Below are positions 19,039 to 56,683 of a DNA stretch of 57,583 nucleotides, piece after piece. The stretch is from Candidatus Atribacteria bacterium ADurb.Bin276 (GTDB lineage: Bacteria > Atribacterota > Atribacteria > Atribacterales > Atribacteraceae). Below the pieces are notes generated by a model. That model was not told the DNA's origin. It ran no database searches and was given only the letters and a program-made list of their open reading frames with translations. Each line of letters begins with the position of its first letter. Positions within the stretch are counted from its first letter, which is position 1. The stretch lies in contig MWBQ01000035.1 in the NCBI GenBank assembly GCA_002069605.1, forward strand, positions 1-57,583, read 5' to 3'. A program made the position numbers and the translations under genes.

Positions 19039-19470
19039 TCAAATCCCCGTATCCATAATTTCTTCTGTTATATCTTCATATTTTCCTTCGACTTCTGAGG
19101 CATATTGATCCCAAACCGATTCCGACCAAATTTCCATTCTTTCTCCAACTCCAACCGTGACCACTTTTTTATCTATTTCTGCATACTCTCTTAAATGCCG
19201 GGGAATAGTAATACGTCCTTGAGCATCTATGGTTTCTTCACTGGCATTGGCTAAGAAAATCCGGGCAAATTCTCTCCCTGCTTTCTTGGTCATAGGGAGA
19301 GATGCAACTTTCCCTGCTAAAACCTGCCAGGCTGTTTCGGAAAAAACAAATACACAATTTTCAATACCTTTGGTAACATAGAGGGTGTTGGATAAATCTT
19401 TTCTGAATTCATTGGGAATGATGAGTCTTCCCTTATTGTCAACTGAATGTCGATATTGTCCTAATAGCAA
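19039..19470 (-). CDS. mraZ: Transcriptional regulator MraZ
   Basis: AbrB-fold DNA-binding protein that represses the division cluster, including itself. The likely start is the TTG at 19468-19470, seven bases after AGGAGG at 19478-19483, giving a protein that opens LLGQYRHSVDNKGRLIIPNEF, exactly where MraZ proteins begin; a longer frame to 19512 would add residues unrelated to the family and would run through the operator. The two tandem domains are visible (HSVDNKGRLIIP and ETIDAQGRITIP). It lies first in the cluster directly behind its own binding boxes. Confidence 0.95.
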   Translation of the reverse strand: MLLGQYRHSVDNKGRLIIPNEFRKDLSNTLYVTKGIENCVFVFSETAWQVLAGKVASLPMTKKAGREFARIFLANASEETIDAQGRITIPRHLREYAEIDKKVVTVGVGERMEIWSESVWDQYASEVEGKYEDITEEIMDTGI

Positions 19471-19488
19471 TCGGACCCCTCCTGATAA

Positions 19489-19533
19489 CCACTTTTCCCC
19501 ACTTTCCCCCACAATTTACCACAAATATACCAC
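19489..19533 (-). promoter_or_regulatory. MraZ box array (five GTGG repeats)
   Basis: On the minus strand GTGG occurs with its first base at 19533, 19522, 19512, 19502 and 19492. The last four are spaced exactly ten bases and the first is eleven bases away. The units read GTGGTAAATT, GTGGGGGAAA, GTGGGGAAAA, GTGGTTATCA. Published MraZ boxes are TGGG or GTGG repeats with the same ten-base period, so this is a strong operator call. The array lies between the inferred transcription start (about 19538) and the ribosome-binding site of mraZ. Confidence 0.88.
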
Positions 19534-19544
19534 TCTTCTCTCTT

Positions 19545-19573
19545 TTTGTAAATGCAATACGCTATTTTTACAA
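19545..19573 (-). promoter_or_regulatory. Probable promoter of the division cluster
   Basis: Minus-strand TTGTAA (19568-19573) and TACAAA (19545-19550) are separated by 17 bases, each matching four of six sigma-70 consensus positions. The predicted start near 19538 puts the MraZ boxes at the very beginning of the transcript. The surrounding AT-rich sequence contains other weak candidates, so the exact hexamers are provisional. Confidence 0.5.
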
Positions 19574-20215
19574 AAATATTTAAATTTTTTACAAAAATTT
19601 GCCGGTTGCTGATTTTTTTTGTGGTAGTTATTGCACAAGAAGAAGGCTGAGGGGGTTTTGGCAAACGGCGTCGAAGGGGCGAGGGGCGAAATTCTTAGAA
19701 GTCCGGTGTTTTTGCTGGACGACGTGAGGATCTCATTCTTTATAATTATTTAATATATTCCCCCATTGAGGGGGGATTCAGGGGGGTGTGCTTTTTTCTT
19801 TTTTATTTGATCACTTTTCAACAATTCTGGTATTTTTTGGATAGACCTTCATGCTACTTAGCAGCTCCAGATAAGGATGAAAATTATATACTCAAGAACC
19901 AATCTCCCCCTTTAGAAAAGGGGGTTAGGGGGATTTGAATTTTTTACTGTTCCGTCATTGCGAGGAACGTCTTATGCGACGTAGCAATCTCATTTTTATT
20001 TTTTTTAAAATAATGAAAAGGATGAGATCCTCACGGCTTCAAAAAACGAAGCCTCAGGATGACGTCGGCGGCGTCAGATGAGATTCTCACACCCTCACAA
20101 AGCGAGGGCTCAGGATGACGTTAATTCTTTTCTCTTTTCTTTATTTTCAAAATAAAAAAGGAAAAAGGGAAAAATAAAGAGGGCTTGAAAATCTCAGGAG
20201 CAATATATACTCAAA
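19574..20215. repeat. Intergenic stretch filled with dispersed palindromic repeats
   Basis: No gene is supported here. From left to right it holds a degenerate unit (about 19700-19740, ending GTGAGGATCTCATTC), a G-tract palindrome near 19755-19785, a GATAGACCTTCATG...AAGGATGAAAAT unit (about 19839-19880) that recurs near 32723-32765, a hairpin of CCCCCTTT...AAAGGGGG type (about 19903-19925), and the composite repeat at 19951-20120 listed separately. It separates mraZ from the PHP gene, which is transcribed toward it. Confidence 0.7.
19951..20120. repeat. Composite hairpin repeat, copy 1
   Basis: Order: an inverted unit (TCATTGCGAGGAACG ... GCAATCTCAT), an AT-rich spacer of about 30 bases, then two direct units, each GATGAGAT(C/T)CTCAC-stem-CTCAGGATGACG (20021-20064 and 20077-20120). 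The stem tips differ: GGCTTC/GAAGCC in the first and CCCTC/GAGGG in the second. Similar composites lie at 32457-32690 and 40771-40936. Confidence 0.8.
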
Positions 20216-20986
20216 CTACTCTTGAGGAAAAAAATCTCTTCCTTCCATCTGATTAATTGCCTTTTTAAACTCCACCCAACAGGGTCGATCCATACGAAAT
20301 TCAGTATAAACCAAACCAACTTGAGGTAAAGCATGAGCATCAGAAAAACGTACCAAGCGACAGTTGTTTAACTTCAACTTCACACGGGCGTTGGAAGTTG
20401 CTAAAGCCGAAGAAATTTCCAAAACTGGAAAGGGGGGATAAGGCGGGAGAAAACCCAGTACCCCAATAATGCTGTAAACGCTTCGATCGACATGGGATGG
20501 AATTATGATTCCATCCTGAATTACCACCAACTGATACAGCTCTTCAACGGTAAGCGAAAGAGGAAAGGTTAAAAGTTCTTTTTTCTTTTCCACAATCTGA
20601 CCGGCAGCGCCAATGACCCACTCTTCACCCCAAAGATTTTCATCAAGAGGAATTGGCTGGAAAAATTGCTGCAGGACTTGATAGAAGGAAAGTATCCGTT
20701 GATAAGTGGGGAAATAAGTAAGAAAATGGATCTCTTCTCGGGTTTCAACCTCCATGCCCGGGATGACCCAAACCCCAAATTGCTCACCTAAAGAAATAGT
20801 GACTTGCACATTCTCGCACGAGTTGTGATCAGTAATAGCTATGATGTCTAAATGTTTTTCCAAGGCTTCCAAGATAATACAATGGGGTAACATATCCCGT
20901 TCGGCGCAAGGAGATAATACACTATGGATATGAAGATCGGCACGGTAGACCCTTTCAGGCATGTTTTTTGGTTCCGTGAACACCAA
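20216..20986 (-). CDS. PHP-domain metal-dependent phosphoesterase
   Basis: A 256-residue PHP protein with the metal-binding motifs RADLHIHSVLSPCAERDM (DLHIHS), IAITDHNSCENV (TDHN), the glutamate in PGMEVETREEIHFLTYFP, the conserved SHVDRS and the terminal FSDAHALPQVG. PHP proteins hydrolyse phosphoesters; the substrate is unknown. It overlaps the DRTGG gene upstream by 32 bases and is the last gene of the hydrogenase-associated module, a position also seen in anaerobes that carry [FeFe]-hydrogenase operons. Confidence 0.88.
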   Translation of the reverse strand: MVFTEPKNMPERVYRADLHIHSVLSPCAERDMLPHCIILEALEKHLDIIAITDHNSCENVQVTISLGEQFGVWVIPGMEVETREEIHFLTYFPTYQRILSFYQVLQQFFQPIPLDENLWGEEWVIGAAGQIVEKKKELLTFPLSLTVEELYQLVVIQDGIIIPSHVDRSVYSIIGVLGFLPPYPPFPVLEISSALATSNARVKLKLNNCRLVRFSDAHALPQVGLVYTEFRMDRPCWVEFKKAINQMEGRDFFPQE

Positions 20987-21332
20987 TCTTGGTTAACACC
21001 TCCACTGCTTGATAGCTGGTTAAGGAAGTTCGCAAAAGGGTTACTTTTTCTTTTTTGGCTTTCTCTATTGTCTGGGGATCAACTTCTTGAAAATTACTAA
21101 TAACAATACAAGGCATGCCTACCAATACCGCAACGGCAATGATATTGGGATGAGAGTGAATGGTCACCCAGACACTCCCTTCACTGGCATTGGCAATACA
21201 ATCACTGAGTAAATCACTACAATATCCTCCGGTGATTTCACTATTATTGAGGTCTCCCTCACAAAGAACTTCAGCTTCCAGCGGTTTTACAATGTCACTG
21301 ACTTTCAATTTTCTTTTTTCCTCCTTCTTCAC
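20955..21332 (-). CDS. DRTGG-domain protein, second copy in module
   Basis: A 125-residue stand-alone DRTGG-fold protein with the order KVSDIVKPLEAEVLCEGD, ITGGYCSDLLSDCIANA, then VWVTIHSHPNIIAVAVLVGMPCIVI and VTLLRTSLTSYQAVEVL. Such small proteins sit next to hydrogenase-related genes in clostridia and thermotogas, where a role as ligand-binding regulators is suspected but unproven. It shares the SDLLSD core with the copy at 23176-23529. It overlaps the hydrogenase-like gene by 38 bases and the PHP gene by 32; the start may therefore be slightly downstream. Confidence 0.78.
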   Translation of the reverse strand: MKKEEKRKLKVSDIVKPLEAEVLCEGDLNNSEITGGYCSDLLSDCIANASEGSVWVTIHSHPNIIAVAVLVGMPCIVISNFQEVDPQTIEKAKKEKVTLLRTSLTSYQAVEVLTKIGVHGTKKHA

Positions 21333-22644
21333 TCATGGTTTGAGGAACGCGACTGGCTAAATCAAAAATTTCTTTGGATATTTCACATAATTTTTCTCGT
21401 AACAAGAAGGGACAATCGATCTCTTGGGCTTTTCCTCTTACAATATCTTCGGCGAGCGATCGGCAGGTTGGGCAACCACAGGCGCCACAATCAAGGGCGG
21501 GAAGTTTTTCCAGTATCTTTTCAATTTGCTGGTATTTTTCAATCGCCTTACGATAGTCATTATCCAGCTTCAACACATCCCGAATTTCATAAGGATGAAT
21601 TCTTTGGAAAGTTTTCTCTTTTCTCCACTCTTCCAACTGATGTTTTTCTGGAGGTTGAGGAGTGGAATGCTTTTTGATCAGATGGTTAACGTTGACTTTA
21701 GCAATAAAGGGATTCTGGACGGCAAAAACTCCTCCAATACAGCCTCCTACACAGGCTTGGGCTTCACAATAGATAACTTTTTTGAGTTCTCCCATCTCTA
21801 TCTTTTCAAAAACTGAAATCACGTTATGAATCCCATCCACTGCCATATATTCCCCTTCGCCAAGGGATTCTTGTTCTCCTCCTGAACGAGCCCACCCAAT
21901 GCCCTTCCAGGAAGCCAGTTGGCAAGATGATTCTTCGGGAAGACTGTCGATATCGTTGATTAAGCGGGGATAAATACTCGACATGGAAATGGCGCCATCA
22001 ATTCGTTCAAGCGTTCCACTTGAGCGTCGGACCTCCATCACCTTAGCCGGACAGGGAGTAATAAAAAATACCCCAATTTCTTCGGGCTTGAAGCCTTTTT
22101 CCATGGCTTGCTTTCGAGCTATTTTAGCTGCTAAACCCAAGGGAGAGTCAAGAGGAAGGAGATTGTCGATCAGCGAGGGAAATTGAACTTCCACCAACCT
22201 GACAACCGCTGGACAGGCTGAGGAGATAATGGGAATATCCAGGTTGGTTTTTTTCAAGTATCGATCAATTTCATCGGCTAAAATTTCAGCTGCCCAGGCA
22301 ACTTCAAATACTTCATTAAAACCTAACTTAACTAAGCCACCCAATAGTTTGCCGAGAGAAAGATTCCCTTTAAACTGGGCATAAAAAGCTGGAGCCGGTA
22401 AAGCGATCGTATATTTAAAATTTTTTAACAATTCCAGTGAATCGGTTTGGCCGTATTTAGCATGGTTGGGACAAGTTCGGATGCACTCACCACAATCGAT
22501 ACAACGATCCTCGTCGATGCGAGCCTTCCCTCGCTTCACCCGAATAGCCTCGGTTGGACATCTTCGAATACAATGAGTACAACCCTTACATTTTTCTTCA
22601 TCTAAAAGAACGGAATGAAAAATTTCTGGATTCAATACTTTCAC
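21295..22644 (-). CDS. [FeFe]-hydrogenase-like protein, putative sensory type
   Basis: A 449-residue protein: two ferredoxin-type 4Fe-4S motifs (C19xxC22xxC25xxxC29 and C48xxC51xxC54xxxC58), an H-cluster domain, and a C-terminal four-cysteine Fe-S domain (C386xxC389...C394...C411). The H-cluster cysteines are kept: C144 (SSACPA), C198 (TPCPAK), C298 and C302 (AQACVGGC). The cysteine that relays protons in catalytic enzymes (first C of TSCCP) is A143, and the methionine of EVMAC is Q296. Those changes are typical of group C/D, putatively sensory hydrogenases. There is no PAS domain. Starts: GTG at 22642-22644, or TTG at 22633-22635, which is better spaced from AGAGGGTGA. Confidence 0.85.
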   Translation of the reverse strand: MKVLNPEIFHSVLLDEEKCKGCTHCIRRCPTEAIRVKRGKARIDEDRCIDCGECIRTCPNHAKYGQTDSLELLKNFKYTIALPAPAFYAQFKGNLSLGKLLGGLVKLGFNEVFEVAWAAEILADEIDRYLKKTNLDIPIISSACPAVVRLVEVQFPSLIDNLLPLDSPLGLAAKIARKQAMEKGFKPEEIGVFFITPCPAKVMEVRRSSGTLERIDGAISMSSIYPRLINDIDSLPEESSCQLASWKGIGWARSGGEQESLGEGEYMAVDGIHNVISVFEKIEMGELKKVIYCEAQACVGGCIGGVFAVQNPFIAKVNVNHLIKKHSTPQPPEKHQLEEWRKEKTFQRIHPYEIRDVLKLDNDYRKAIEKYQQIEKILEKLPALDCGACGCPTCRSLAEDIVRGKAQEIDCPFLLREKLCEISKEIFDLASRVPQTMSEEGGKKKIESQ

Positions 22645-22696
22645 CCTCTTTTCTTTTGTCGGAGAAAAAACGGGTGGGAATTCCCCTAATTAAATT

Positions 22697-23176
22697 TTAT
22701 GGCATTTCTTTTTGATCAGGAGCAGACGAACCTACTTGGGATGAATCAAGCCAAAAAACCATCATTACCTTGGTCCCTTTTCCAACCTTGGTTTGGATGT
22801 CTATTTGGTTTGAACACTTCTTCATATTCGAGAGTCCATACCCTGCTCCAAAACCCATTTCTCGAATATGGGCTGGTGCCGTTGAAAATCCCTCTTGAAA
22901 GGCTAAGTCAACATCAGGAATCCCCGGTCCTTCGTCTTCAAGAACCACTTGTACATGGTCAGGATAAATTGATGTGGAAAATGTTCCCCGATAGGCATGG
23001 ATTACCACATTCATCTCGGCTTCATAAGTAGCGATTACCACCCGTCGGATAAATTGCGGCGGTAAACCAGCTTGTTGGAGGATATTTTTCAGTTCGCTGG
23101 ATATTCCTCCAGCGTTTGAAAAATCACCTCCAGTAATTTCCTTTTTGATTTCAATGTGGGGTTGATGTTGGTCCAT
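22697..23176 (-). CDS. HATPase_c anti-sigma/histidine-kinase-like ATPase
   Basis: A 159-residue ATP-binding protein of the GHKL fold. It shows the N box YEAEMNVVIHAYRG, the G1 box EDEGPGIPDVDLA, and the G2 region FGAGYGLSNMKKCSNQIDIQTKVGKGTKV. There is no histidine phosphotransfer domain, so it resembles RsbW/SpoIIAB-type serine kinases or free-standing kinase ATPase domains. It overlaps the preceding DRTGG gene (TAATG) and precedes the hydrogenase-like gene, suggesting that signal from the Fe-S protein is passed through this ATPase; that link is inference. Confidence 0.85.
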   Translation of the reverse strand: MDQHQPHIEIKKEITGGDFSNAGGISSELKNILQQAGLPPQFIRRVVIATYEAEMNVVIHAYRGTFSTSIYPDHVQVVLEDEGPGIPDVDLAFQEGFSTAPAHIREMGFGAGYGLSNMKKCSNQIDIQTKVGKGTKVMMVFWLDSSQVGSSAPDQKEMP

Positions 23177-23529
23177 TACTTTACTTCGCTACACCCTCGA
23201 GCTCCTCCCTGATACAATCTCCCACAGGATTCAAACATGGGCAGCCGAGTTGTCAAAAGGGGTATTTTTTTGATGGTTGCTAATTCGATGGTTGCATTAT
23301 CCGGTCTTTTGCCTCGAACAAAAACGATACCAATCAGATCGCTCATTTCAGCTGTCCGGATAACTTGTGAATTGGTAAGGCCGGTAAGTAGTAGTGATTT
23401 TTCTTTGGTGAAAGCCAGCACATCGCTTAAAAGATCGCTCCCGCAAATCGAGGTCGGTTCGATATCTAATAATTCCTCTCCAGTTAATATTTCAGCCTGT
23501 AGAAGGTCTTTGATTTCACGTAGGGTCAT
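23176..23529 (-). CDS. DRTGG-domain protein, first copy in module
   Basis: A 117-residue small protein with LREIKDLLQAEILTGEELLDIEP, CGSDLLSDVLAF, then a Rossmann-like half LLLTGLTNSQVIRTAEMSDLIGIVFVRGKRP and a TIELATIKKIPLLTTRLPMFE segment. The pattern matches the stand-alone DRTGG proteins next to [FeFe]-hydrogenase genes. The C-terminus carries two cysteines (ESCGRLYQGGARGC) whose role is unknown. It opens the five-gene module, 15 bases after the SPOR gene. Confidence 0.78.
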   Translation of the reverse strand: MTLREIKDLLQAEILTGEELLDIEPTSICGSDLLSDVLAFTKEKSLLLTGLTNSQVIRTAEMSDLIGIVFVRGKRPDNATIELATIKKIPLLTTRLPMFESCGRLYQGGARGCSEVK

Positions 23530-23544
23530 TGGAAACCTCTCTCC

Positions 23545-24147
23545 TTATTGACCGATAAAGGCATCAATTCCTTTCGACTTGATTTTTTGTATCGCTTCAG
23601 ATGCCTCTTGTTTGGTTTTAAAACCGTAAACTTTTACCTTAAACAAATTAGCTGATTTTTCAACGGTTGCCCCAAACCCCATCTCTCTGAGGGTATTTAC
23701 CATATTATTGGCATTGCCTTCACTGGAAAATGCCCCCGCTTGTAAATAAAAACTCCCGGTCGGTGGTGGTGTCGACTGGGGAGGAACCGGTGTCGGCGTT
23801 GGTTTGGGTTGAGATGGAGGTGGTGATGGAGTTGCTAAAACTGCTTCCTGAGCAGTAGTTACTTGTGGCTTTTCTTGGTTCACTTCTCTCTCTTCTTCAA
23901 TTATCAACCCCTTTTGAATTTGACTGGTCGTAGTTATTTCTTCAAATTCTTCAGGATAATCGCTTCCAACTAAAGGTCTTTCCGCTATTTGAGTTGTTTC
24001 TTCTTTGACTCCTCCCTGAAGGAGAAGCTGAGTATAGGCATCCAAATCTCCCCGCGCCATAAAAAAAGCCAGCATTACCACTAAAAAACCACCGAGAAGA
24101 AGAATAATCAACTCAACTGGGTCCCGCCTTTTCCGAAATTGCTTCAT
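23545..24147 (-). CDS. SPOR-domain membrane protein
   Basis: A 200-residue bitopic protein: a basic N-terminus (KQFRKRRDP), one membrane helix (about 13-31), a low-complexity linker rich in T, P and Q (about 85-130), and a C-terminal SPOR domain (FYLQAGAFSSEGNANNMVNTL ... KVKVYGFKTKQEASEAIQKIK). SPOR domains bind denuded peptidoglycan glycans at the septum, so the protein is probably a divisome accessory. The ATG overlaps the valS stop (ATGA). Confidence 0.88.
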   Translation of the reverse strand: MKQFRKRRDPVELIILLLGGFLVVMLAFFMARGDLDAYTQLLLQGGVKEETTQIAERPLVGSDYPEEFEEITTTSQIQKGLIIEEEREVNQEKPQVTTAQEAVLATPSPPPSQPKPTPTPVPPQSTPPPTGSFYLQAGAFSSEGNANNMVNTLREMGFGATVEKSANLFKVKVYGFKTKQEASEAIQKIKSKGIDAFIGQ

Positions 24148-26801
24148 TGGTTCATTATCCCCTCTATTAATTTCTGGAGGCGTTGCGCCTCGCTTAATAA
24201 TTTCTCTAAACGAATCTGATCTTTTTCTATCACTTCTTGGGGAGCTTTTTCCAAGAAATCTGGTTTTTCAAAACGTTTTTGAATTCTTTCCACATCCTCG
24301 CTAAGAACTTTATGCTTTTTATTTAACCGCTGCAGTTCCCGCTTAATATCCACCAATCCTTCGATCATTAAAAAGATATCTATCCCATCAACTTGCCCAG
24401 TCACCGCGCCTCCGGGTTTTGAGATTTCAACATCAGTTTTTATTATCTCACATTTTGCCAGTTGTTCAATGTATCCCAAATGTTCCTCGATTATAACCCG
24501 ATTATCCGATTGATGAAAACCAAGCTGCACCCGACAGGTTTCAGCGGGAGAAATCTCCAGTTCTGCTCTTAAAAATCGTATTTCTCGTATCAAATTCTGG
24601 ATTGATCCGATAGCTTTTTCACTCTGGTCATTGAACCACGGTTTTTCCGAAACTGGCCAGTCGGATATGATAAGCGCATCTTTATCATTTCTCATCGGGA
24701 AAGAGTGCCAGATTTCTTCAGTAATAAATGGTGCTACGGGATGAAGAAGTTGAAGAATTCCCGAAAGCACTTGAACTAAAACCGACTGGGTTTTCCTTTT
24801 CTCTTCCGGACTTCCCTGGTAGAGGTCTTTTTTACTCCATTCGATATACCAATCACAGAATTCACCCCAAATAAAATCATAAATAATCTGGACATATTCA
24901 CCAAATCGATAATCATCGAGAGCCAGGCTGGCCTGTTCGATGGTTTGTTGAAATCTGGAGATTATCCAGCGGTCTTTCAAACTGAGATGAGCTTCATTAT
25001 TCAATTCGACCGGAACAAAGTCCTCTTCAAGATTCATCAAGACAAAGCGGGAAGCATTCCAGATTTTATTCATGAAATTTCTCGAGGCTTCGATTCTTTC
25101 CATGGAGAGATGAATATCTCGACCCTGAACCGTCAACCAAGCAAGAGCAAAGCGTAAAGAATCCGATCCCAGCTGACGAGCAACTTCTAAGGGATCGATG
25201 GCATTACCTGACGATTTGCTCATCTTCTTCCCATAGGCATCACGGACCAAGGGAGTGATGTAAACCTTTCGAAAGGGAACATCCTGCATAAACTTCAATC
25301 CCATCATAATCATCCTCGCAACCCAGAAAAAGATAATATCGAATGCCGTGATTAAAACCGAGGTAGGATAAAAGGTTTTTAGGTCAGGAGTTGTTTCTGG
25401 CCACCCCAAAGTAGAAAAAGGCCAAAGAGCTGAGCTAAACCAGGTATCGAGAACATCTTCATCCTGGACTACCTTTCCCTGGCATTTCGGACAATGATCG
25501 GGTAACCCTCGGTCGGCAAAATAATGACCACATTCTTGACAATAAAAAACCGGCACCCGATGGCCCCACCAAATCTGCCGCGAAATACACCAATCCCGAA
25601 TATTATTCATCCATTCAAAATAAATTTTATTCCATCGTTCCGGGATAAACTCAACCCGACCCTCTTCAACTGCCTGGATTGCCGGTTGAGCTAAATCTTT
25701 CATTTTCACAAACCATTGTTTGGATACTAAAGGCTCTACCTGAGTATTACATCGGTAACAGTGACCAACCGAATGAGAATATTCTTCAATTTTTTCGATG
25801 AGGTCCAAACTCTTCAGCTTTTCGACAATTGCCTCTCGACATTGTTCTCGAGTCATACCGGCAAAAATCCCAGCATTTTCATTCATCACTCCGTGAGGAT
25901 CGATAACCGCAACTACCGGAAGGTGATGTTTTTTCCCCAAATCAAAATCGTTCATGTCGTGGGCCGGTGTTACCTTGAGAACCCCGGTTCCAAATTGCGG
26001 ATCAACATATTCATCCTGGATGATACTCATATCTCTTCCGATGATAGGAAGGATAACAGTGGAATTGACTACCTGGCGGTATCGTTCATCTTCGGGATGA
26101 ACGGCTAAAGCCACATCTCCCAAAATGGTTTCCGGCCGGGTGGTAGCAACCACCAAGTACTGTTCAGGATGCTCCTTGATGGGGTACCGAACATAATACA
26201 AAAATGATGGAACATCACGATAATCAACTTCGATATCGGAAATGGCCGTTTCACAACGGGGGCACCAGTTAACGATATACTCTCCCCGGTAAATCAGCCC
26301 TTCATCAAAAAGTCGAACGAACACCTCTTTTACCGCAGCCGACAATCCTTCATCAAAGGTAAAACGCTCTCGGGTCCAATCGCAGGAAGCACCCATGCTT
26401 TTCAGCTGTTTTACAATCCGATCGTGGTATTGGTCTTTCCATTGCCAAACCCGCTGAATAAACTCTTCTCGACCCAGTTGATGGCGATCTAATCCTTCCT
26501 TCGCCAACTGTTTTTCAACAACATTTTGGGTAGCAATGCCGGCATGATCGGTTCCCGGCAACCAAAGCGTTTGATCACCTTTCATCCTCCGGTAACGAGT
26601 GAGAATATCATGAAGAGTCAGATTGAGAGCATGACCCATATGGAGGAAACCGGTCACATTGGGAGGAGGAATAACCATACAAAAAGGGTTGGAATGCTGC
26701 GGATCTGGAGAAAAATAACCGTTTTTTTCCCAATACTCATACCATTTGGTCTCAGTGTGAGAAGCGTCATAAACCTGCGGAATCGGTGTTCGATTGTTCA
26801 T
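24144..26801 (-). CDS. valS: Valyl-tRNA synthetase
   Basis: Class I synthetase charging tRNA-Val, 885 residues. Motifs: PPPNVTGFLHMGHALN (HIGH-type H54MGH57), the editing domain with TTRPETILGDVALAVHP, KQWFVKMKDLA, a zinc-binding knuckle (CQECGHYF ... CPKC), and KKMSKSSGNAI (KMSKS). The C-terminal coiled coil from about 800 onward (LVDIKRELQRLNKKHKVL) is the tRNA-binding arm typical of ValRS. It lies 14 bases after clpX. Confidence 0.98.
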   Translation of the reverse strand: MNNRTPIPQVYDASHTETKWYEYWEKNGYFSPDPQHSNPFCMVIPPPNVTGFLHMGHALNLTLHDILTRYRRMKGDQTLWLPGTDHAGIATQNVVEKQLAKEGLDRHQLGREEFIQRVWQWKDQYHDRIVKQLKSMGASCDWTRERFTFDEGLSAAVKEVFVRLFDEGLIYRGEYIVNWCPRCETAISDIEVDYRDVPSFLYYVRYPIKEHPEQYLVVATTRPETILGDVALAVHPEDERYRQVVNSTVILPIIGRDMSIIQDEYVDPQFGTGVLKVTPAHDMNDFDLGKKHHLPVVAVIDPHGVMNENAGIFAGMTREQCREAIVEKLKSLDLIEKIEEYSHSVGHCYRCNTQVEPLVSKQWFVKMKDLAQPAIQAVEEGRVEFIPERWNKIYFEWMNNIRDWCISRQIWWGHRVPVFYCQECGHYFADRGLPDHCPKCQGKVVQDEDVLDTWFSSALWPFSTLGWPETTPDLKTFYPTSVLITAFDIIFFWVARMIMMGLKFMQDVPFRKVYITPLVRDAYGKKMSKSSGNAIDPLEVARQLGSDSLRFALAWLTVQGRDIHLSMERIEASRNFMNKIWNASRFVLMNLEEDFVPVELNNEAHLSLKDRWIISRFQQTIEQASLALDDYRFGEYVQIIYDFIWGEFCDWYIEWSKKDLYQGSPEEKRKTQSVLVQVLSGILQLLHPVAPFITEEIWHSFPMRNDKDALIISDWPVSEKPWFNDQSEKAIGSIQNLIREIRFLRAELEISPAETCRVQLGFHQSDNRVIIEEHLGYIEQLAKCEIIKTDVEISKPGGAVTGQVDGIDIFLMIEGLVDIKRELQRLNKKHKVLSEDVERIQKRFEKPDFLEKAPQEVIEKDQIRLEKLLSEAQRLQKLIEGIMNQ

Positions 26802-26815
26802 TTTTATTCCTTTCT

Positions 26816-28078
26816 TTAGGCTGGCTTATCTTGAATGAGTTGATTATCCACATAAATATCATTGGTTTGATTTTTTATGACCATGTCTTTATCAACAGTT
26901 AATTTTTTAATATCTTTCCGATCGGGGCATTCAAACATCACTTTGGTCATCAACTTTTCCATGATAGCCCGCAAACCACGAGCCCCGGTCTTTTTTTCCA
27001 TGGCCTCAATGGCTATTTGTTTTAAGGCGCCATCGGTGAAACGGAGGTCAACTCCATCCAGGCGGAGAAGATGCTGATACTGTTTTAGCAAGGAATTTTT
27101 TGGTACGGTTAAAATCCGTACCAAATCCTCTACATTGAGCTCATCCAAAGCACAGATGATGGGAATTCTCCCCACCAGCTCGGGAATCATACCAAATTTC
27201 ATCAGGTCATGCGGCTGTACGTCAATTAAAGGATTTTCCTGAAGCTTGGTCTGGTTGGCTTCAAAAGCTCCAAAACCGATTTTCTTTTCCTTCATCCGAG
27301 CTTCAACAATCCGCTCCAATCCAACGAAAGCTCCACCACAAATAAACAGAATATTAGCGGTATTCATCGGGATAAATTCTTGATGAGGATGTTTTCTCCC
27401 CCCTTGGGGAGGAATATTGGCAATGGTACCCTCCAAAATCTTCAACAAGGCCTGCTGCACTCCCTCTCCCGACACATCACGGGTAATTGAAGGATTCTCA
27501 GATTTCCGAGCAATTTTATCAATCTCATCGATGTAGATTATTCCCTTTTCGGCTTTTTTTAAGTTAAATTCAGCGTTTTGCAAAAGGCGAAGCAAGATAT
27601 TTTCAACATCTTCGCCCACATAACCCGCCTCAGTAAGGGTGGTTGCATCAGCAATTGCAAAAGGAACGTTCAACATCTTGGCCAAGGTTCGGGCTAAAAG
27701 AGTTTTTCCTGAACCAGTTGGCCCAATCAATAGAATGTTACTTTTTTCAATTTCAACTTCATCTTCCTCAAGGGAAAAAAGAATTCTCTTATAATGGTTA
27801 TAGACTCCAACCGAGAGGGTGATCTTGGCTCTTTCCTGTCCGATGACATATTGATCCAAGAATTTTTTCATCTCCATCGGTGTCGGCAATTTTCCCAAAT
27901 TGAATTCCGGCTGCTTTTTGTTGTTCTTGGTTTCTTCACGAATCACATCATTACAAAGGTCAATGCATTCGTTACAAATGAAGACTCCGGGGCCGGCAAT
28001 CAGTTTTTTTACCTCCGCCTGCGGTTTCCCGCAAAAAGAACAGCGGATTTCTCCTTTTTCATTATCATAACGTGCCAT
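26816..28078 (-). CDS. clpX: ATP-dependent Clp protease ATPase subunit ClpX
   Basis: AAA+ unfoldase that feeds substrates to ClpP. The N-terminal zinc domain has CSFCGKPQ and [11 protein letters not shown]+ motifs are the Walker A GPTGSGKT, Walker [11 protein letters not shown] and the pore loop [15 protein letters not shown]; the ClpP-binding IGF loop appears as KIGFGAF. The family start [17 protein letters not shown] corresponds to the ATG at 28076-28078; a longer frame to 28129 lies wholly inside clpP and adds only basic residues. It overlaps clpP by 14 bases. Confidence 0.97.
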
Positions 28079-28703
28079 TCCCGCCTGTTTCTCCTTTTCT
28101 TTCTTTTTTTGGAATGATAACCTGGTCAACCAAGCCGTAAAGTTGTGCCTCTTCTGCCGACATAAAATAGTCCCGTTCAGTATCTTTTTTTATTTTATCT
28201 AATGGTTGGCCAGTATGATTAGCCAAAATACTATTGAGTTTTTCTTTAATTTTAATCATCTCACGGGCTTGAATTTCAATATCCGTCACCTGACCCTGGG
28301 CTCCACCTAAGGGCTGGTGTATCATCACCCGTGAATTGGGCAAAGCCATTCTCTTCCCTTTGGTGCCGGCAGCCAGAATCACTGCTCCACCGCTGGCAGC
28401 CATTCCAATACAAATCGTTGAAATATCCGATTTCAGATACTGCATCGTATCATATATAGCCAGTGTCGAAGACACTGATCCTCCTGGACTATTAATGTAA
28501 AGATTAATATCTTTTTCAGTACTTTGAGCATCGAGAAAGAGCAGTTGGGCAATGATAAGATTGGCGATCACATCGTCGATCTCCGTCCCAAGAAAAACGA
28601 TTCGATCAATTAACAGGCGGGAATAGATATCATAGGACCTTTCTCCCCGCGGAGTTTGCTCAACAACGATAGGAACTAAATAATTATTTTTTAAATCCTG
28701 CAT
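28065..28703 (-). CDS. clpP: ATP-dependent Clp protease proteolytic subunit ClpP
   Basis: Serine protease of 212 residues forming the tetradecameric chamber. Catalytic residues are S104 (MAASGGA), H129 (VMIHQPLGG) and D178 (ERDYFMS). The oxyanion-region INSPGGSV is conserved. The motif around the serine reads ASGGA where most ClpPs have ASMGA, a minor variation. The C-terminus is charged and longer than the minimum ([14 protein letters not shown]). It touches the tig stop and precedes clpX. Confidence 0.97.
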
Positions 28704-30013
28704 TATTCCACCATCTCCTCTTCTGGATCTTCAAGAGCTTTCCACTGATCGATATTGATCGGTTCTTCTAATTCCTTGGTCTTCACCTTTTGCAGGATAT
28801 CTAAAATCAATTTCTGCTGGAGCTTCTGGTCCATTAAATCGTCCATCTTATTATTCTTCTCTAAAATTTGTTTGACATCCTCGACTTCTTTTCCCGTTCT
28901 CTGGGCAATCCTTTCCATCTCTTCATTCATTTCTTCTTTTCCAACCGAAATACCATTTTTATCGGCATACTCCTGAAGAACAAACATTTTTTTCAACTGC
29001 CAAAGAGCCTGTTTTCGGAAATCTTTTTCAATGCTCTCAAAATCGGTATTGGTTATTTCCATGTATTTTTCTAAGGTCATTCCGTCTTTTTGAATGTGTT
29101 CAATAAAATGATCGATCTGATGCTTGGTTTCATGGTCAATCAAAACACTGGGAACCACTACTTCAGATTTTTTAGCGAGCAATGCCACTGCTTCCTTCTC
29201 CATACGGATCTGCACCAAATCCTCGGCCCATTTCTCCAAAGATTCCCTGGTTTTCAATCGTAAATCATCAAGAGACTTCAATTCGGGATTGAGTTGGGTT
29301 AAAAATTCCTCGTTCAATTCTGGAATTTCTTTTTTCATAATCTCGATCACGGTAAAGTCCACCTCTTCGGCAGGTTTATCGGCTTCAGTTTCCTGAGGGC
29401 GAAATTTTCCCGTTTCACCCCTTTTCAACCCGATGACTACTCGGCTCAATACCGATTCATCATCAGAAAACGATGCCATGACCGCATATTCTTTGTCCTC
29501 TATTTTTACCTTAACCATATCACCAGTTTCAACTGGAAGGTCTTCTTTTTCTTTCCACAACCCTCTTGATTTTTGGATCCCTTCGATCTCTTTTTCAACA
29601 TCAGAATCGCGAATCACTACCTTATATTTGCGGACTTCAATATCTTCCAGGTTCGCCAGGGTAGTTTGGGGTTTTTCTAATATTAAAGCTTTAAAAACCA
29701 GCGGTTGTCCTTCTTCCACCGTTACCAGATCAATATCCGGTTCACCAAAAAGAGTAAGGTTTTCTTCTTTGATCACCTTACTCAGAGCGTCGGGAACTAA
29801 GCTTCGAGCTAATTCGTCCTTGATAAAATTCTGATTGAGATGAGCCTTGAGAATAGCCCGTGGGGCTTTCCCTTTCCGGAAGCCAGGAACCGCTACTCGA
29901 AGACTCGCCTCTTTATAAATATTTTCCAGTTTCTCCTGGACTTTTTCCTCTTCAATGGTTATTTCGTATTCATAAAGATGTTTTTCCTTTTCTTCCTTTT
30001 TAAATTGAACCAT
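28703..30013 (-). CDS. tig: Trigger factor, divergent PPIase domain
   Basis: Ribosome-associated chaperone, 436 residues. The ribosome-binding signature [14 protein letters not shown] is near residues 39-52. The C-terminal substrate-binding domain (from about 245) is typical. The central FKBP-type peptidyl-prolyl isomerase domain (about 155-235) is reduced: it retains [23 protein letters not shown] but lacks the usual glycine-rich IPGFE stretch, so isomerase activity is doubtful. It is the first gene of the minus-strand run toward clpP, clpX and valS; the ATG has AAGGTGG upstream. Confidence 0.93.
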
Positions 30014-32456: not shown

Positions 32457-32690
32457 ACTGCCATTACGAGGAGGCCAACCGTTTTTTGGTCAGACGACAT
32501 GAGAATCTCATCCGGCCTCTCCGTCATTCTGAGGAGCGAAGCGACGTGAGAATCTCATCCTTTAAAATATTTTAAAAAACAAAGAAATATAAAAGATGAG
32601 ATCCTCGCGCGGGAAAGCACCGCTCAGGATGACACCTTCGATGTCAGATGAGATCCTCGCGGCTTCGAAAAACGAAGCCTCAGGATGACG
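32457..32690. repeat. Composite hairpin repeat, copy 2
   Basis: An inverted unit (about 32520-32558, TCATTCTGAGGAGCGAAGCG then GTGAGAATCTCATCC), preceded by a diverged one (from 32457), is followed by an AT-rich spacer and two direct units at 32595-32633 and 32647-32690. Stem tips are GCGG/CCGC and GGCTTCG/CGAAGCC. The same order is seen at 19951-20120 and 40771-40936, including the AT-rich spacer. Confidence 0.8.
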
Positions 32691-32717
32691 GATTAAAGAA
32701 TTTATTGATGATATTTA

Positions 32718-32875
32718 CAGGATAGACCTTCATGTTATTCAACAGCACCAAATGAGGATGAAAATGAGTTACCCTCTCACCTTAATCCTCTCCCACCAGG
32801 GAAGAAGAAAAAAGGAAAAAGTGTTTTTCCTCCTAGCAAAAAAACTGAAGGGGCGAGTGTGAGAGGGGGTGATAA
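32718..32875. repeat. GATAGACCTTCATG unit and CTCACC/CTCTCCC repeat
   Basis: A GATAGACCTTCATG ... GAGGATGAAAAT unit (about 32722-32765) matches one at 19839-19880. It is followed by CTCACCTTAATCCTCTCCCACC, a low-complexity repeat whose relatives lie at about 40952-40985, 47710-47725 and 53590-53795. No coding frame is supported in the gap between the ABC-2 permease and the FAD gene. Confidence 0.6.
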
Positions 32876-40542: not shown

Positions 40543-40770
40543 TTTTTTATTGTAAGCTTTCTGAAAAAAAAATCAAGGTTAGGTTGAAGTCGGTTTTTAT
40601 AAAGAAAATTTAATAGGTTAGATCCTCATACCACTTTTGTGGTACCAGATGAGGATAAAAAAGCTGGTGGGGAGAGGGGGTGAGGGGGCGATATTTTCTC
40701 TGTTATTTTGAAGAGTCCGGTGTATTTTTCCGGATGACGTGAGAATCTCATCCACCCACTCAGTCATTTT

Positions 40771-40936
40771 CTGAGGAGCGTATTGTGCAACGTGAGAATC
40801 TCATCCTTTAAAGTATTTTTAAAAAACAAAGATATATAAAAGATGAGATCCTCACGCGGAAAAACACCGCTCAGGATGACATCGGCAGTGTTAGATGAGA
40901 TCCTCGCGCCCTCACAAAGCGAGGGCTCAGGATGAC
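40771..40936. repeat. Composite hairpin repeat, copy 3
   Basis: Inverted unit TCATTTTCTGAGGAGCG ... GTGAGAATCTCATCC, AT-rich spacer (about 40807-40840), then direct units at 40842-40880 and 40894-40936. Stem tips are GCGG/CCGC and GCCCTC/GAGGGC. The architecture equals copies 1 and 2, but the pairing bases in the tips have been swapped between units. Confidence 0.8.
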
Positions 40937-40998
40937 GTATTACTATAATTCCTTCTCCTTTGATGGGAGAAGGAGAGGATGAGGGTGAAAGCTTGGAT

Positions 40999-47632: not shown

Positions 47633-47813
47633 GATTTCTTCACCTCGATCCTTTTTAAAATCAGTGAACAGTGATGAGAAAAATTTCGCCCTTTCTTTAT
47701 TTTTTCCCATCAAGGGAGAAAGAATTATGGTGTTGCATCATCCAGAGGTTTCGTTATCGGAAGCCGTGAGGATCTGCTGCCCATTTCCTCGGTTCTTCAA
47801 TATCACCGTTGGT

Positions 47814-56283: not shown

Positions 56284-56633
56284 AAGGGAAGGTCAGGCAA
56301 CCGCAGGCGAAAAACCTGAGGAAAGTCCGAACTCCACAGAGCAAGGTACTGGATAACGTCCAGCGAGGGTAACCTCGGGAAAGTGCCACAGAAAAGCAAA
56401 CCACCTTGGTTTTTTTACCAAGGTAAGGGTGAAAAGGCGAGGTAAGAGCTCACCGATCACCGGGTAACCGGTGTATCTGGAAAACCCTACCTGGAGCAAG
56501 GCCAAATAGGAAGGAATGAGGCTGCTCGCTGACCTTCGGGTTGGCTGCTTGAGGAACCGGGTAACCGGTTTCCCAGATAGATGGTTGCCGTTCTCTTTTG
56601 AGAATACAAAATTCGGCTTATCGATCTTCCCTT
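56284..56633 (+). ncRNA. rnpB: RNase P RNA (class A)
   Basis: Catalytic RNA of tRNA 5' processing. The conserved elements appear in order: GAGGAAAGTCCGAACTCC (P4 5' side and CRI), GGGTGAAAAGGCGAGGTAAGA, AGAGCTCACCG, the late AGATAGATGGTTGCC and ACAAAATTCGGCTTATCG (P4 3' side). The ends AAGGGAAGGTC and GATCTTCCCTT pair as P1. Ends are placed from that pairing and may be off by a base or two. Confidence 0.95.
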
Positions 56634-56634
56634 A

Positions 56635-56683
56635 AAAAAAGAGGGATTAAGTTATCTTTTTGATAACTTAATCCCTCTTTTTT
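56635..56683. terminator. Bidirectional intrinsic terminator between rnpB and the permease
   Basis: Perfect 16-base arms GAGGGATTAAGTTATC (56641-56656) and GATAACTTAATCCCTC (56662-56677) with a five-T loop, flanked by A6 on the left and T6 on the right. It can end rnpB on the plus strand and the RbsC-type gene on the minus strand. Confidence 0.92.

Follow-up and report, generated by a model that had tools for sequence, protein, structure and literature searches.

Why should a gene for an [FeFe]-hydrogenase-like protein, packed together with genes for two DRTGG proteins, an ATPase and a PHP phosphoesterase, lie behind the run tig-clpP-clpX-valS-SPOR and apart from catalytic hydrogenase genes? 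The locus in question is found in a 57,583-nucleotide stretch (the window), contig C35 of a 231-contig, 2.5-Mb, 98%-complete genome from the class Atribacteria (phylum Atribacterota). On its minus strand, from 23529 down to 20216, the genes DRTGG1, HATP, HydS, DRTGG2 and PHP, here called the module, follow one another with a 1-nucleotide overlap, a 52-nucleotide gap, and overlaps of 38 and 32 nucleotides. The position, order and tight packing of these five open reading frames, and the upstream run, are as the first-pass annotation had described them. Pfam matches in the module comprise DRTGG (both proteins), HATPase_c_2, HATPase_c, Fe_hyd_lg_C, Fer4, FeS (PF04060) and PHP_C.

The answer that we favor, with a probability of about 0.56, is that the module is a cytoplasmic H2- or redox-sensing unit in which HydS would control a DRTGG-HATP kinase that DRTGG2 and PHP would modulate. 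Of the redox or H2-sensing relay proposed earlier, what holds is a conserved signaling-type module, best read as an Fe-S/H2 sensor with an ATPase or kinase. Chance clustering of the five genes is ruled out by the same order in 24 of 24 other genomes of the taxonomic order and in dozens of Bacillota. A defense system was rejected as well, as PADLOC returned weak partial matches alone (PDC-M49A, 1.7e-5; BrxP, 1.1e-4).

A putative sensory hydrogenase of group D

HydS (21295-22644, minus strand; 449 residues) matches PF02906 (2.7e-35) and PF04060 (5.9e-12). It keeps all ligands of the H-cluster (C144, C198, C298 and C302) and eight cysteines of the N-terminal clusters (C19, C22, C25, C29 and C48, C51, C54, C58), and has a Cx2Cx4Cx16C motif near the C terminus at residues 386-411. 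Ala (A143) replaces the proton-transfer Cys299, Thr (T196) Met353 and Gln (Q296) Met497. A Pfam search found no PAS domain in HydS, which places it outside group C. Among 103 aligned relatives the Cys299 position is occupied by Ala in 91, by Ser in 10 and by Cys in none, and that of Met353 by Thr or Ser in all; the cysteines of the C-terminal cluster are invariant, and those of the H-cluster are kept wherever the alignment covers them.

These features are those of the group D (M2e) class typified by TamHydS of Thermoanaerobacter mathranii (PMC8163306). Judged from its sequence, HydS carries every signature of group D (M2e) putative sensory [FeFe]-hydrogenases, a class considered sensory because its members are encoded near protein kinases and bifurcating hydrogenases (PMC3561251). 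TamHydS catalyzes H+/H2 interconversion (PMC8163306), and a raised H2 affinity and H2-induced changes of secondary structure have been reported for it. The genome encodes HydG, so the H-cluster can probably be built.

HydS and the TamHydS system have in common the domain order, the Cys-to-Ala and Met-to-Thr/Ser signature, the Cx2Cx4Cx16C motif and the lack of a PAS domain. T. wiegelii (L079), of the same genus as TamHydS, has the same five genes ahead of hydC-HATPase-hydB-hydA. In contrast, the place of the atribacterial module is between SPOR and mraZ, away from the catalytic operon. The papers on the class name an HATPase and an "AraC regulator" beside the hydrogenase (PMC8163306, PMC3561251) and describe group D genes as often, not always, upstream of bifurcating hydABC; this typical placement was seen in none of the 19 atribacterial loci that extend at least 7 kb downstream. 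In a HydS tree Atribacteria form one clade (100/100) on a long stem, with a sister group that lacks clear support.

The ATPase, the DRTGG proteins and the phosphoesterase

HATP (22697-23176, minus strand; 159 residues; HATPase_c_2, 1.9e-11) is a stand-alone GHKL ATPase resembling SpoIIAB/RsbW, with the anti-sigma F factor SpoIIAB as its best PDB match (1til, 1.1e-6). Its N-box Glu/Asn and its G1/G2 glycines are invariant in 99 homologues, the residues aligned to SpoIIAB being E52, N56, D81xGxG and G108xGxGxG (L042 numbering). It is the only clear stand-alone SpoIIAB/RsbW-type member in the genome, two other matches lying in 402- and 528-residue frames. With SpoIIAB and RsbW it shares its small stand-alone GHKL form, the N-box Glu/Asn and the G1/G2 boxes; unlike them, it scores below the SpoIIAB cut-off, has no STAS antagonist in its genome, and is paired or fused with DRTGG and HydS. 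No PF01740 match was found in this 98%-complete genome by a search that matched in 10 of 14 control genomes. Classical partner switching is therefore unlikely, and a STAS-based version of it was rejected.

DRTGG1 (23176-23529, minus strand; 117 residues) consists of a single DRTGG domain (PF07085, 28.2 bits; cut-off, 25.2 bits) with the motifs GxDLxSD, LLTGL, RTAE, VRGKxP and CGxLY, in that order. D32, S35, D36, T49, G50, R58, R72, G73, K74, T94 and G103 are invariant, and identity to the Bacillota counterparts is 47-64%. Its AlphaFold2 model (predicted local distance difference test [pLDDT], 93.9) is closest to the DRTGG protein AF1212 (template modeling score, 0.82), the DRTGG domain of a CBS-domain pyrophosphatase (CBS-PPase) and the N-terminal domain of HPr kinase. 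At the sequence level, searches of PDB chains with DRTGG1, DRTGG2 and PHP had no meaningful result.

Of the new facts in this analysis, a fusion of DRTGG1 to HATP is the most useful. The two form a single 269-residue protein in Tepidanaerobacter and in a Thermosediminibacteraceae metagenome-assembled genome (L082:9160-9969 and L106:9149-9958), and within one Bacillota order 18 of 22 genomes have the fusion as an uninterrupted frame. A fixed fusion of this kind is strong evidence that the two proteins work as a single unit. In both L082 and L106 the fusion gene shares 4 nucleotides with the 3' end of rex, whose product scores above its curated cut-off; rex encodes an NADH/NAD+ sensor and lies within about 10 kb in five further loci. 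In L107 (9050-9995) and L125 (8900-9995), stretches of low complexity rich in Thr, Gly, Ser and Ala lengthen the DRTGG1 and HATP frames at their overlap; these could be linker sequence or an insertion, or an artifact of the reading frame in GC-rich DNA.

In HPr kinase/phosphatase, too, a kinase domain follows a DRTGG-like domain at the N terminus. The likeness to the DRTGG1-HATP fusion is one of layout only, as the kinase types differ: the kinase domain of HPr kinase/phosphatase is of the P-loop type, not GHKL. CBS-PPases have the DRTGG fold in common with the module, which contains neither a CBS nor a pyrophosphatase domain.

DRTGG2 (20955-21332, minus strand; 125 residues) scores above the cut-offs for both PF07085 (31.3 bits) and Hpr_kinase_N (27.4 bits). 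It is marked by the motifs DLLS, W.T and N..AVA, with D40, S43, W55, T57, A66, V67 and A68 invariant. PHP (20216-20986, minus strand; 256 residues), of the metal-dependent phosphoesterase family, exceeds the PF13263 cut-off and falls just under that of PF02811 (24.8 against 26.4 bits); its TTG start may have been placed too far upstream. The metal-ligand set H19, H21, D53, H54, E79, H87, H165, E190, D216 and H218 is invariant or nearly so, and the AlphaFold2 model (pLDDT, 95.0) has EndoQ, TM0559 and RNase AM as its top PDB folds. The predicted fold and the metal ligands together place the protein with certainty in the PHP phosphoesterase superfamily.

Distribution and gene neighborhood of the module

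Loss of synteny in close relatives, which would have told against a common system, was not seen. All 24 other genomes of the order have the module, with HydS identities of 69-98%; DRTGG2 is uncalled in two, and one contig ends before DRTGG1. SPOR is upstream in 22 of 22 atribacterial contigs that are long enough, and in 20 of 20 that reach far enough on the other side, mraZ is the first annotated gene beyond PHP, with an antisense open reading frame between them in one. The module is absent from the sister class JS1, where only group A-like hydrogenase matches were found and the run tig-clpP-clpX-(lon)-valS goes on into folC. One paper lists only the FeFe groups A3 and C for the phylum (PMC11227167), so that the group D protein was apparently either overlooked or taken for group C.

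A scan of a genome collection yielded at least 586 relatives, and the loci examined were the best 80, which are the nearest relatives and many of which are metagenome bins; gene labels in the comparison come from profiles built for this analysis. Outside Atribacteria the carriers of the cassette are mostly Bacillota. Of the 52 loci there that extend at least 7 kb downstream, 45 have HydA/HydB genes, usually directly after PHP in the order HydC-HATPase-ferredoxin-HydB-HydA; of the 19 such atribacterial loci, none does. The five-gene set thus occurs both with and without hydABC, and the earlier remark that clostridial homologues lie beside catalytic hydrogenase genes is confirmed. The same remark on thermotogas found no echo, as none of the best 80 of at least 586 relatives is titled as such; the phylum was not searched separately. 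Four loci (L090, L094, L098 and L132) have a module without catalytic genes and a position in the HydS tree apart from Atribacteria, so separation from hydABC probably occurred more than once.

HATP lies directly ahead of HydS in 29 of 29 atribacterial loci, which include a few duplicate contigs of the same genomes, and in 70 of 74 others. The pair is present without DRTGG or PHP genes in L081, L085 and L105 (about 4.0-11.3 kb), where it adjoins genes for large sensor kinases and response regulators and, in L081, a CheW-like gene; in the Spirochaetales locus L116 it stands alone. By gene order, HATP and HydS are the core pair of the module.

Upstream, the SPOR gene (23545-24147; PF05036, 2.9e-16; FtsN/DedD-like architecture) ends 15 nucleotides ahead of DRTGG1. 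It is preceded on the same minus strand by valS (24144-26801), a neighbor kept by synteny, and by clpX, clpP and tig (26816-30013), which form the head of the run. Gaps within the cassette are tight both in Atribacteria and elsewhere (medians between -20 and 18.5 nucleotides), whereas the gap ahead of DRTGG1 has a median of 9.5 nucleotides in Atribacteria and 146 elsewhere. This difference suggests that the module joined the upstream operon in Atribacteria. The description of the module as fused to a proteostasis operon is borne out in its tight adjacency to SPOR, and the module may be cotranscribed with the upstream genes. The linkage to the valS side is not peculiar to Atribacteria, since in ten loci outside that class the module likewise follows valS-folC, in some cases with SPOR. 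By eye, ThrS-like open reading frames were seen two to four genes upstream in L090, L094, L098 and L132; with valS or thrS upstream, an aminoacyl-tRNA synthetase recurs as a neighbor of the module. Only in Atribacteria was tig-clpPX seen next to it; elsewhere that place is taken by valS-folC-SPOR, thrS-like genes or hydABC.

Downstream, 703 nucleotides separate PHP from mraZ (19039-19512, minus strand; PF02381, 5.7e-35), the first gene of a division and cell wall cluster that starts beyond this gap, and mraZ is probably a separate transcription unit because of it. A promoter-like site precedes mraZ at 19552-19524; the number of sites in promoter scans was no higher than in shuffled sequence. 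Just ahead of the likely mraZ start, TGGGGGAAAGTGGGGAAAAGTGG at 19511-19489 resembles MraZ autoregulation boxes (TGGGN repeats). The gap (19513-20216) is full of dispersed repeats that recur at 40739-40938, 32520-32765 and 47738-47775 and on other contigs. Elsewhere in the window, a class A RNase P RNA gene is found at 56285-56636 on the plus strand.

The absence of catalytic subunits, claimed earlier, holds for the locus, where no HydA, HydB or HydC gene was found, and not for the genome, where contigs C84 and C28 each carry a group A HydA operon. A genome without catalytic hydrogenase is ruled out by these operons together with HydG. Both operons are syntenic in another family (L161 and L162). 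The C84 operon reads NuoE-HATPase-ferredoxin-NuoF/oxidoreductase-NuoE-NuoF-HydA; its 1030-residue protein (L009:1703-4795), a NuoF-like domain fused to an NfnB/GltD-like pyridine-nucleotide oxidoreductase, has counterparts of 1030-1034 residues in G004 and G012. The operon begins with the same HydC-HATPase-ferredoxin series that follows the module in Bacillota, and in the tree its HydA is placed beside HydAs linked to modules, with a support of only 0.45. On these grounds the module and the C84 hydCBA genes may once have been joined and later split.

The C28 operon encodes a group C HydS that carries PAS, next to a SpoIIE-type phosphatase (L007:11595-14461), followed by HydC-HydB-HydA. Like the HydS of the window, the group C (M2f) proteins TmHydS and Thermoanaerobacterium HfsB (with HfsC) have two N-terminal clusters, an H-domain and an extra C-terminal cluster, and hfsB mutants back a sensory role for that group genetically (PMC11837493). 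The window HydS, at about 30% identity, differs in having neither the PAS domain nor the phosphatase and in being accompanied by a SpoIIAB-type ATPase. Both sensory classes are thereby tied to phosphorylation-type enzymes, and one organism combines two sensory hydrogenases, one of the PAS type accompanied by a phosphatase and one without PAS accompanied by a kinase-like ATPase. It is a matter of speculation that the two oppose each other on one target.

A proposed sensing unit and its alternatives

From these observations we infer H2 sensing in vivo, a kinase activity and its substrate, an order of signaling and a reaction for PHP. HydS, with a normal H-cluster and without the usual proton-transfer cysteine, would read H2 or the H2/ferredoxin balance and would pass its state, probably through the C-terminal [4Fe-4S] cluster, to the SpoIIAB/RsbW-type HATP joined with DRTGG1. 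The DRTGG1-HATP unit would then phosphorylate or sequester a partner; DRTGG2 would most likely be a second regulatory subunit and PHP the enzyme by which the signal is undone. The genes of the unit lie in Bacillota together with those of the bifurcating hydrogenase that it presumably regulates, and in the class Atribacteria it would act from a place away from hydABC, fixed behind tig-clpPX-valS-SPOR. Atribacter laminatus RT761, a member of the class, produces H2 during growth and is inhibited by it (PMC7736352), and H2 sensing would thus be useful to the organism. In a bolder and rather doubtful form of the proposal, the DRTGG-HATP pair would be a kinase switch of a new kind, with DRTGG replacing STAS in a SpoIIAB-like partner switch driven directly by an [FeFe] H-cluster, which in Atribacteria, uncoupled from hydrogenase genes, would set translation, proteolysis or cell envelope activity by H2 pressure.

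Several points weigh against a sensing unit. Neither sensing nor kinase activity has been demonstrated experimentally for any group D module, and HydS may be catalytic, since TamHydS interconverts H2 and protons. HATP reaches 50.5 bits against the 135-bit cut-off of the SpoIIAB equivalog (TIGR01925), and the genome lacks a STAS protein, the usual substrate of SpoIIAB/RsbW. In four loci HATP-HydS occurs with neither DRTGG nor PHP, and JS1 bacteria have a group A HydA without the module, so that operation of a hydrogenase does not require it. The best 80 of at least 586 loci are, moreover, a biased sample.

It is unlikely that the module is instead the nucleotide-signal relay of the first-pass annotation, in which PHP would make or destroy a messenger bound by both DRTGG proteins, with HydS as the input. 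PHP does resemble PHP enzymes whose substrates are nucleic acids or nucleotides (EndoQ, RNase AM and the AMP-bound amidohydrolase 2yb1) and conserves its metal ligands, CBS-PPases controlled by adenine nucleotides have a DRTGG fold in their regulatory region, and the invariant RGK and Arg58 of DRTGG1 could bind an anion. However, the CBS-PPase work ascribes the regulatory nucleotides to the CBS domains and not to DRTGG, and the module contains no nucleotide cyclase or synthetase. Some PHP proteins of the CpsB/YwqE type dephosphorylate proteins, and HATP-HydS is the constant pair, with DRTGG and PHP dispensable. A still less probable reading makes HydS a slow but genuine redox enzyme, for example in H2 uptake to ferredoxin at low H2, which its neighbors would tune or gate without any signaling. 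In its favor, no H-cluster or electron-relay cysteine has been lost, and TamHydS does interconvert H+ and H2. Against it, HydS has an ATPase of the SpoIIAB type as its constant partner, the proton-transfer cysteine is gone in all relatives examined and the genome already has two catalytic HydA operons.

The least probable of the alternatives is a device for assembly or quality control of Fe-S or H-cluster proteins, with HATP as a GHKL chaperone-like motor and the DRTGG proteins as scaffolds, which would account for the position beside tig-clpPX. Trigger factor and ClpXP are indeed encoded nearby, GHKL ATPases include chaperones, and a second HATPase lies inside the hydABC operon. Yet the closest characterized relatives of HATP are anti-sigma kinases rather than HSP90 or MutL, the module was seen with a tig-clpPX neighborhood in Atribacteria only, and JS1 bacteria have HydA without the module.

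The sensing unit had been called undescribed before. Its hydrogenase class is known (group D/M2e, TamHydS; PMC8163306, PMC3561251), and the full five-gene set was not found described. For that set, DRTGG1, DRTGG2, PHP and the fusion, no description was found among open-licence papers, which is weak evidence of absence. The full module, the kinase fusion and the fixed place in Atribacteria apparently are new, the sensor class being known, and by sequence comparison the atribacterial module is a relocated version of a putative sensory-hydrogenase system already known. The TamHydS work (PMC8163306) asked how group D hydrogenases that lack a PAS domain would put out an H2 signal. A specific signaling partner of HydS is indicated by the cassette of five genes, by the constancy of the HATP-HydS pair and by the fixed fusion of DRTGG1 to HATP. 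Control of H2 is of importance in syntrophy and the rumen as well as in fermentation and biofuel strains, and the H2 that cultured Atribacteria produce inhibits them.

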